A stretch of DNA of 64,000 nt, from NCBI RefSeq assembly GCF_016807805.1, contig NZ_CP063362.1, forward strand, positions 682,001-746,000. The letters run 5' to 3'. The notes under the pieces are model-generated. The model did no database searches. It worked only from the letters and a program-made list of their open reading frames with translations, and had not been told where the DNA came from. This DNA comes from Xanthobacter dioxanivorans. Its GTDB lineage: Bacteria > Pseudomonadota > Alphaproteobacteria > Rhizobiales > Xanthobacteraceae. The position numbers and the translations under genes were made by a program. Position 1 is the stretch's first letter; each line of letters begins with the position of its first letter. Of this stretch, positions 2,206-41,775 are shown one piece after another.

Positions 2206-2302
2206 GGCCGACAGAGCCCCCGGGGGACGCCGCCACCGGCAGCGGGCGCGCTCCCCCGGAACGCCCTCAAGCGGCAGGGGCCAGCCCCCTCCCCCTCCCC
2301 CG

Positions 2303-2326
2303 CCCTCCCCCGCAAGCGGGGGAGGG
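2303..2326. repeat. GC-rich palindromic repeat between gltB and gltD
   Basis: The 266-base gltB-gltD spacer holds a perfect 11-bp inverted repeat with a two-base AA loop (2303-2313 pairing with 2316-2326), set in a C-rich run. The core CTCCC..GCAAG..GGGAG strongly resembles the arms of the larger palindrome inside uvrC at 41088-41186. It is therefore probably a fragment of the same dispersed palindromic element. It could also pause or partly end transcription between the two subunits. There is no T-run after it. Confidence 0.6.
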
Positions 2327-9073: not shown

Positions 9074-9150
9074 ATCCGCTTTCCCGTCCTTTTCGTTCGA
9101 TTTACCGGACGAAGCCCTTGACGCCAAGGGGAGGCCCGCAGTTAACTGAC

Positions 9151-9210
9151 GCGGTGGTGAATTTGAGCCGGCCCGCTTGCAGCCACGTTAAACAACCTTG
9201 CTAAAAGGCC
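9151..9210 (+). promoter_or_regulatory. SAM-II riboswitch upstream of metZ
   Basis: The stretch has the SAM-II (metA-motif) order: GGTGGTGAATTTGAG, then CTTGCAGCCACGTTAAACA, then GCTAAAAGG. GTGG at 9154-9157 pairs with CCAC at 9183-9186 to form P1, and the A-rich loop and GCTAAAA tail supply the pseudoknot strands. SAM-II aptamers are known mainly from alphaproteobacteria upstream of metA, metZ and metX, where S-adenosylmethionine binding hides the ribosome site. Here it lies about 90 bases before the metZ start codon at 9302. Confidence 0.88.
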
Positions 9211-9301
9211 GGGGACGATGAGACGGGGGAGCCTCGCGCCGGATGCCGGCGGCGACGGGCGAAATCCGCGCCTGATCCCCTCGGCCTCCCCGGAGACCGT
9301 C

Positions 9302-39423: not shown

Positions 39424-41775
39424 ATGGCGGCCGCCTCGGCGATTCCCTCCGCCGCCCGGGCGCATTACATAGGGGCCATGACCGGCAGACGCCCCATCGA
39501 CCCGCCCGAAATCGCCCTCGCCAAGGCCGACCCCGCTCTCCCGCCGGAAGCGGAGGACGCGGAGGACATGGACGAGGAGGGCCTGGTCCTCCTCGACACG
39601 CAGGACGCGCCGCTCCCCGGCGAGGAGAGCCTCGCTTCCGGCCGCGCGGCCATCGTGCGCGCGGCGAAGCACGCACCCGCCGGTCCCGGCGTCTACCGCA
39701 TGATCGCGGCGGACGGCACGGTCCTCTATGTGGGCAAGGCGAAGAGCATCCGGAAGCGGGTGCTCAGCTATACCCGCCCGGTGGGCCACACCAACCGCAT
39801 CGCCCGGATGATCGCCGCCACCGCGTCCATGGAATTCGTCTCCACCCGCAGCGAGCCGGAAGCGTTGCTGCTGGAGGCCAACCTGGTCAAGCAGCTGAAG
39901 CCGCGCTTCAACGTGCTGCTGCGCGACGACAAGTCCTTCCCCTACATCCTCATCACCGCCGACCATGCCGCGCCGCAGATCGCCAAGCACCGCGGCGCCC
40001 GCAACCGGCCCGGCGACTATTACGGCCCGTTCGCCAGCGTGTGGGCGGTGGACCGCACCATCAACGCGCTGGAGCGCGCCTTCCTGCTGCGCTCCTGCTC
40101 CGACAGCTATTACGAGAACCGCTCCCGGCCCTGCCTGCTGTTCCAGATCAAGCGCTGCGCCGGCCCCTGCACCGGCGAGGTGAGCCAGGAGGATTATGCC
40201 GAGCTGGTGCGCGAGGCCCGCGCCTTCCTCTCCGGCCGCTCGCGCGCCATCAAGGAGGAGCTGGCGCGGGAGATGGACGCGGCCTCGCAGGACCTGGAGT
40301 TCGAGCGCGCCGCCCGCCTGCGCGACCGCCTCGCCGCGCTCTCGGCGGTGCAGGGCTCGCAGGGCATCAATCCGCGCGGGGTCGAGGAGGCGGACGTGTT
40401 CGCCTGCCACCAGCAGGGCGGCGCCACCTGCATCGAGGTGTTCTTCTTCCGCACTGGCCAGAACTGGGGCAACCGCGCCTATTATCCACGCGCCGACCGC
40501 TCCCTGAGCGAGGCCGAGGTGCTGGGCGCCTTCCTCGCGCAGTTCTACGAGGACAAGCCCTGCCCGCGCCTCGTCCTGCTCTCCCACAAGGTGGAGGATC
40601 AGGCGCTGCTGGCCGAGGCGCTGTCGGAGAAGACCGGCCACCGCATCGAGATCGCCGTGCCCCAGCGCGGCGAGAAGCGCGACCTCGTCGAGCACGCGCT
40701 CCAGAACGCCCGCGAGGCGCTCGCCCGCACCTTGGCCGAGACCGCCACCCAGGCCAGGCTTCTGGAGGGGGTCGCGACCGCCTTCGGGCTGGCCCGGCCG
40801 CCCCGGCGGATCGAGGTCTACGACAATTCCCACATCATGGGCACCAATGCGGTGGGCGGCATGATCGTGGCGGGGCCGGAGGGGTTCCGCAAATCCCAGT
40901 ACCGCAAGTTCAACATCAAGTCGGCGGACCTCGTGCCCGGCGACGATTTCGGCATGATGCGCGAGGTGCTTCGCCGCCGCTTCTCCCGGCTGCTCAAGGA
41001 AGCGCCGCGGGAGGGGGCGGCCGGGCCGGACGGCGTGGATGCCGAGGCAGCATCGGAGCAGGCGGCGCTCCCGCCAGAGGTTGATTCCCCCTCACCCCAG
41101 CCCTCTCCCGCAAGGGGAGAGGAAGTCCCACCGCCGGCGCCACAGCTTCTCCCTCTCCCCTTGCGGGAGAGGGGCGGGGTGAGGGGTGAAGGCCTCCCCG
41201 AGGGCCTCCTCTCGGGCGACGAGATCCCCGCCCCCGCCTCCCGTGCGGATCGGGACAGCAGCCAAGCCGATCCCCCGGACGAACCCGAGGCCCTCCCCGA
41301 CGCCGCCGAGGCCTCCCCCTGGCCCGACCTCGTCCTCATCGACGGCGGCCTCGGCCAGCTGAACGTGGCGCGGCAGGTGCTGGACGAGCTTTGCATCACC
41401 GACGTGCCGCTGGTGGGCATCGCCAAGGGCCTCGATCGCGAGGCCGGGCGCGAGCAGTTCTTCCTGCCCGGCCGCGCGCCCTTCCGCATGGAACCGCGCG
41501 ATCCGGTGCTCTATTTCATCCAGCGCCTGCGCGACGAGGCCCACCGCTTCGCCATCGGTTCCCACCGGGCGCGGCGCAAGAAGGACATCACGGAAGCCGG
41601 GCTGCAGGCGATCGTGGGGGTCGGACCCACCCGCAAGCGGGCTCTGCTGCGCCATTTCGGCACGCTGAAGGCCATCGAGCGGGCCTCGCTGGCGGACCTC
41701 GAGCAGGTGGCCGGCATCAATGCCGGCACCGCCAAGGCGGTGTATGATTACTTCCATGAACGGCCCACATCGTGA
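39424..41775 (+). CDS. uvrC: UvrABC excinuclease subunit C, with a palindromic repeat inserted in frame
   Basis: UvrC makes both incisions in nucleotide excision repair. The N-terminal GIY-YIG nuclease ([25 protein letters not shown]) carries the 3' cut, and the UVR domain ([20 protein letters not shown]) binds UvrB. The RNase H-like nuclease includes [21 protein letters not shown] and [14 protein letters not shown], and a double helix-hairpin-helix closes the protein. At 783 residues it is over 100 longer than usual. About 100 residues between [11 protein letters not shown] and WPDLVLI are low-complexity and contain the translation of a dispersed palindrome ([14 protein letters not shown] ... 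[12 protein letters not shown]). The ATG at 39424 has AGGGG 8 bases upstream. An ATG at 39478 is the alternative. Confidence 0.94.
41088..41186. repeat. Dispersed palindromic element inside uvrC
   Basis: Two 35-base arms (41088-41122 and 41152-41186) are inverted copies differing at two positions, with a 29-base loop. The arm core CTCTCCCGCAAGGGGAGAGG is itself nearly palindromic. Translation stays in frame through the element. A shorter relative lies at 2303-2326. Confidence 0.85.

Follow-up and report, generated by a model that had tools for sequence, protein, structure and literature searches.

The uvrC gene of Xanthobacter dioxanivorans (G000) contains a long palindrome within its reading frame, which raises the questions of where this DNA came from and how UvrC accommodates it. 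We consider it probable that the palindrome is an inverted doublet of a TM_ECO-type repeat that has spread in the genome and was retained here because the flexible UvrC linker tolerates it. The features of the window, that is the whole stretch of 64,000 nucleotides that was analysed, are listed in Table 1.

Table 1. Positions of uvrC, the repeat units and an RNA element in the window
Feature	Position	Strand	Remarks
uvrC	39424..41775	+	783 aa from first ATG; later ATG at 39478 possible
DNA of linker predicted disordered (residues 535-624)	41026..41295	+	between the RNase H-like domain halves
palindrome	41088..41186	.	two dispersed repeat units in inverted orientation, with the hairpins on the inside and the G/C-rich third tracts on the outside
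left TM_ECO-type unit	41088..41123	-	1 mismatch to published pattern; read from sequence
right TM_ECO-type unit	41151..41185	+	exact pattern match; G000:C1:723151-723185:+ (window offset 682000)
single divergent unit, same general form	2285..2326	-	spacer before gltD; hairpin at 2303-2326
SAM_alpha riboswitch (RF00521)	9144..9224	+	60.6 bits; before ORF at 9218

The palindrome and the linker that contains it

A sequence-only reading of this DNA had claimed a near-perfect palindrome of 99 bases, and an inverted-repeat search confirmed both the palindrome and its position, far beyond chance: the arms (41088-41125 and 41149-41186) have 38 nt each, are 92% complementary and are separated by 23 nt. 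With the settings used, it ranks first of the 33 inverted repeats of the 64-kb window. The predicted RNA fold of the palindrome has -84.3 kcal/mol, compared to -53.6 +/- 4.5 in 200 shuffles (z -6.9; none of the 200 equal), and a single arm consists of a hairpin plus an adjoining further tract. Identity with a known RNA family was rejected, as the sole match in the window at the Rfam gathering threshold is a SAM_alpha riboswitch located elsewhere.

The surrounding open reading frame matches TIGR00194 and NF001824 above cut-off, and Pfam domains match too. The palindrome lies entirely within this one open frame and, also as claimed, between the two halves of the RNase H-like domain: PF08459 matches residues 452-711, and solved UvrC structures match both flanks of a gap at about 527-629. 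In an AlphaFold2 model (40 sequences, mean pLDDT 73), the domain halves that flank the linker are mostly confident and residues 535-624 have a pLDDT below 50. Foldseek aligns the model with the solved UvrC nuclease domains 2nrr (TM 0.88) and 3c65 (TM 0.85; both by target length). D467, D640 and H707, which we take to be the catalytic residues, are invariant in 40 of 40 sequences. Outside the linker, Ka is 0.062 and Ks 0.442 in comparison with G012, with similar values for four others, indicating that uvrC is under constraint.

The view that the element has enlarged a normally short linker did not hold. The palindrome makes up about 33 of the 108 linker residues in G000. In three congeners lacking any palindrome signal the linker is 71, 72 and 88 residues long (L126, L124, L120), and hence not short in the genus even where the element is absent.

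Relation to the TM_ECO motif and dispersal in the genome

Both arms fit the TM_ECO "intrastrand triplex" motif, a published dispersed repeat (Holder et al. 2015, PMC4666352, where an earlier description by Hoyne and Maher is cited). In the portion of that article consulted here the pattern is given as CCCTCNCCC N3-6 GGGNGAGGG N3 GGGNGAGGG with one mismatch allowed; the right uvrC unit matches it exactly and the left unit, which is not among the exact pattern matches, with one mismatch. Copy number and arrangement agree as well: G000 has 33 exact copies (control 0), and inverted orientation is seen in 53 of the 57 pairs of neighbouring cores. TM_ECO and the G000 repeat share their sequence pattern and unit size, and both occur as closely spaced inverted pairs. 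For the E. coli units an intrastrand triplex was shown in vitro by CD and NMR, according to the same portion, and by analogy the uvrC units, each composed of a hairpin CCCTCTCCC/GGGAGAGGG and a third tract, could form one too.

One difference is in location. TM_ECO of E. coli K-12 is described as always intergenic (PMC4666352, in the same portion), whereas the G000 repeat is also found in frame within genes, namely in uvrC, phnI and the gene for urea carboxylase. We treat the intergenic location as an observation on one strain and not as part of the TM_ECO definition. Among relatives, 19 of a set of 41 genomes have the exact pattern, as do 58 of 385 genomes sampled from the class (control 0 among the results listed). 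Its presence in the genus is patchy, with 33 copies in G000, 21 in G001, 26 in G003, 22 in G007, 18 in G010, 5 in G008 and at most 1 in each of the remaining eight.

A 22-nt core, searched with at most 3 mismatches in the 6.65 Mb genome of G000, was found 54 times in forward and 49 times in reverse orientation (2 and 0 for the same pattern read backwards as control). The claim of a dispersed element, which further copies in the genome were to decide, is borne out by these 103 cores. The scored stretches were chosen from the places of core matches (100 of 103 listed); in the retrieved stretches the 103 cores were found and form 45 clusters. Neighbouring cores less than 200 bases apart form 57 pairs, with minus-plus orientation in 37, plus-minus in 16 and plus-plus in 4. 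All but one of the minus-plus spacings fall into two classes, 90-97 and 110-120. The uvrC doublet is a plus-minus pair with 51 bases between the cores, while most plus-minus pairs have 72-107, indicating that it is not a standard full copy. The hairpin that had been noted in the gltB-gltD spacer (genes identified by eye from their ORFs) is present, but consists of a single divergent unit and not of a doublet.

Three clusters (L152, L159, L167) are arrays of 6, 8 and 7 units, mostly of alternating orientation, in which units of the same orientation are mostly about 190-210 bases apart. The clusters are concentrated in one part of the chromosome: 24 of the 45 (L151-L166) lie within 3.60-4.40 Mb of the 6.28 Mb contig, a density that 2000 random placements did not reach in any 0.8 Mb. 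Between 4.3 and 4.6 Mb the signs of the GC skew and of the GGGNAGGG strand bias both flip (noisy data from 20 sampled stretches of 20 kb), thus the terminus may be near the dense region. Both this concentration and the longer arrays distinguish the G000 repeat from TM_ECO, for which the consulted portion of PMC4666352 describes the opposite positional tendency in E. coli K-12 and no tendency in other bacteria.

Copies inside genes and palindromes in the linkers of relatives

Five of the 45 clusters have the same best coding frame on both sides and are open across the repeat. As these calls are based on a rough method, a codon score with 24 window ORFs as its training set, the number is a lower bound and the remaining clusters may include further genic ones. 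At least three in-frame copies, all of them in genes for conserved enzymes, are firm: the one in uvrC, one in phnI (identified by Pfam PhnI, 541 bits) and one in the urea carboxylase gene (TIGR02712, above cut-off). A doublet at G000:C1:1169035 (L146) also lies in an ORF with the same best frame on both flanks, open throughout; its downstream coding score is weak (0.12), the ORF has no Pfam or NCBIfam match, and both the genic copy and the likeness of the product to hydrogenase accessory proteins (HupK-like by eye) are tentative. A cluster at C1:3789060 (L155) was not counted as genic: here the frame of a DUF559 gene crosses four units into an apparently separate gene. By eye, the gene downstream of this repeat looks like a citramalate synthase type.

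Among the three frames of each arm, a stop is present in one frame of the minus arm. In the three firm G000 copies and the tentative one, the plus arm is translated to ..PSPARGE or PSPTRGE and the minus arm to SPLAGEG or LPLRERGG; in phnI of G001 the plus arm is read in a different open frame.

The urea carboxylase insert is present in G000 and absent from 11 of 11 readable relatives (13 loci examined), indicating that at least one copy is specific to the G000 lineage. A MITE would show a target-site duplication and terminal inverted repeats that match a transposase; the insert has ragged ends with some native linker residues missing, and no target-site duplication could be defined at this site. 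Of the earlier statement that the element moves or spreads, the spreading is thus supported by the dispersal and by a lineage-specific copy; movement would be deduced from the patchy presence.

Within UvrC, palindromes in the linker recur. We took 110 UvrC loci (80 + 30, the 80 being the best 80 of 584 and not a random sample), of which 104 had a linker; one duplicate genome was dropped, leaving 103. A palindrome score of >=15 was reached by 10 of the 103 linkers but by none of 206 control windows, which had the same length and were placed before and after the linker in the same uvrC genes; for a score of >=13 the numbers are 12 and 0, with 11 as the best control. Ten linkers, a set slightly different from the ten with a score of >=15, beat all 99 codon shuffles, compared to one of the 206 controls. 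Fisher's test for 10/103 versus 0/206 gives p = 1e-5, which overstates the case because related genomes are not independent. A linker free of palindromes in all relatives, which would have spoken against the sequence-only reading, was thus not what was found.

In a quick UvrC tree of 100 rows, constructed with the linker excluded, the ten carriers fall into seven groups: G000; G003 with X. aminoxidans; G008; G009 with G012; G022 with L062 (Rhodoplanes); L052; and L046 (Bosea). The inserts of G022, G012 and G008 are of different make, and each is a dispersed repeat in its own genome. This test of dispersal covered four of the seven groups (G000, G022, G012, G008; the inserts of L062, L052, L046 and L057 were left out) and gave many further matches in all four. 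The G012-type insert (VMPGLEPGIHA...DEPGHDG) has, by eye, no core in common with the CCCTC type, and has 38 matches in G000 at E up to 0.001. G000 itself is sister to the G009/G012 clade (support 88), apart from the other carriers of its element. The G000 copy would thus have been inserted separately, or else be ancestral and have been replaced in the sister clade; a single origin followed by loss or replacement is as plausible as separate insertions. Across the lineages, the insertion events into the linker may have been independent.

Carriers have a median linker length of 101 residues, versus 30 in the 91 linkers that score <13. However, 15 of these 91 have >=60 residues, so length alone does not attract repeats. 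In two draft genomes, G007 (C71/C389) and G011 (C213/C286), the uvrC match is divided at the linker over two contigs; repeats could be the cause of these breaks.

The PhnI linker behaves alike. Among 16 phnI loci 12 linkers were readable, and four of these (G000, G005, G012, G001) beat all 99 shuffles, the one of G005 narrowly (12 vs 11). The phnI linkers of G005, G012, G002, G001, G003 and G011 (L191-L195, L199) contain varied palindromes. By eye, the first palindromic stretch is adjoined by a second one in two of these, G003 and G002, and neither linker beats the shuffles; the linker of G011 has 181 residues with internal repeats.

Origin and retention of the insert

The proposed sequence of events is as follows. 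The repeat would have spread through the G000 genome by some mobiliser, probably through transposition-like copying and mostly outside of frames that can be scored as genes. A copy in coding DNA would persist only if it keeps the frame, lies in an open frame and is at a place that the protein tolerates. The linker of the RNase H-like domain, which is long and predicted disordered in the genus, would be such a place, and would have been taken up by TM_ECO-type and other palindromic repeats in several lineages. The uvrC insert itself would then be neutral, and the simplest reading is that the flexible linker tolerates it.

A conceivable alternative is selection for altered repair: the insert may have been retained for a function, with the mRNA hairpin, the DNA structure or the peptide changing the level or activity of UvrC, for example as a mild mutator. 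Several element types in one UvrC linker and the very stable predicted RNA hairpin are consistent with this, as is the over-representation of repair genes among the genes tagged by GTAG/CGTC REPs (Di Nocera et al. 2013, PMC3733652, in the parts consulted). However, the non-repair genes for PhnI and urea carboxylase are hit likewise, 91 of 103 UvrC orthologues (score <13) do without, and in G001 (L118) the element is decayed and uvrC is still open; we regard a retained function as unlikely. Equally doubtful is the idea that several families of triplex- or hairpin-forming repeats dock preferentially at the UvrC linker and are selected there, being captured repeatedly because the insert, be it as mRNA hairpin, DNA structure or disordered peptide, tunes excision repair; if true, repeat-rich lineages would also shift their mutation rate.

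The search for a transposase of the element was limited to the RAYT type (PF01797). It gave the expected matches in the positive-control genomes and none in the 14 genomes of the genus, G000 included. Neither this search nor the urea carboxylase site yielded a mobilising enzyme, a target duplication or insertion ends that could be defined; we read the repeat as mobile or formerly mobile. Spread by recombination or gene conversion among copies instead of transposition, with the linker copies as by-products, would agree with the lack of PF01797 matches in the genus, with the alternating arrays of 6 to 8 units and with the phnI linkers that have mixed or adjacent palindromes. Yet the urea carboxylase site of the readable relatives has no repeat that could seed a conversion, and we give this alternative little credence.

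Still less probable is that the element is a GTAG/CGTC REP and owes its mobility to a RAYT transposase. Such REPs resemble it in size, in hairpin form and in forming doublets, but neither uvrC arm has a GTAG or CGTC tag at its ends when the sequence is read. PF01797 is found in 7 of the 41 relatives, and G035 alone among these also has the TM_ECO motif (1 of 19 motif-bearing genomes). The association with a RAYT was thus rejected and this reading is contradicted, barring a RAYT too divergent for the family model. In the parts of PMC3733652 consulted, GTAG/CGTC REPs sit inside genes, many of them for excision repair or recombination; linkers are proposed as tolerant insertion sites, and mutators are speculated on. 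The likeness is in the situation, as both kinds form in-frame palindromic doublets, repair genes included, while the uvrC element belongs to another sequence class, has no tag and no RAYT in the genus. A further difference is that GTAG/CGTC REPs are, in these parts, at differing sites, apart from recB of two Xanthomonas species, where the site is about the same, whereas here several element types share one linker. The word uvrC is absent from the main text as consulted, where 'UvrABCD' is present; figure 7B or the supplementary lists may include a uvrC case. Last, chance or local formation of a palindrome in linkers that are GC-rich and of low complexity is almost certainly wrong, given that the best of 99 codon shuffles of the uvrC linker scores 12 and the real one 29, and that the arms recur genome-wide in numbers that refute it.

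Rickettsia palindromic elements (RPE) are palindromes embedded in frame in proteins. The resemblance to these that had been suggested for the uvrC palindrome applies to the situation, the in-frame position being common to both; by sequence, the uvrC element fits the TM_ECO triplex-motif family. Unlike the hosts of RPE, the host here is not obligate intracellular, judging by its genus. RPE are also mentioned in PMC3733652, in the parts consulted.

The TM_ECO-type doublet, as a single insert in uvrC, belongs to a known kind of event. The new part, as judged from sequence, is that different lineages have several element types in one and the same UvrC linker; this, together with the genic position of a family described as intergenic, would be unexpected to a specialist. 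A literature search, which covered few subscription papers, yielded no published case of a TM_ECO unit within a coding gene and none of palindromes repeatedly inserted into the UvrC linker, and the consulted parts of PMC12306157 hold nothing on the TM_ECO-type family. The finding joins two lines of research, the one on intergenic triplex-motif repeats and the one on REPs within repair genes. It also provides a natural experiment, with the linker of one enzyme present with and without several kinds of insert in close relatives, so that tolerated junk and changed repair can be directly told apart by test. Beyond the Rickettsiales, dispersed DNA may thus supply bacteria with new disordered protein sequence.
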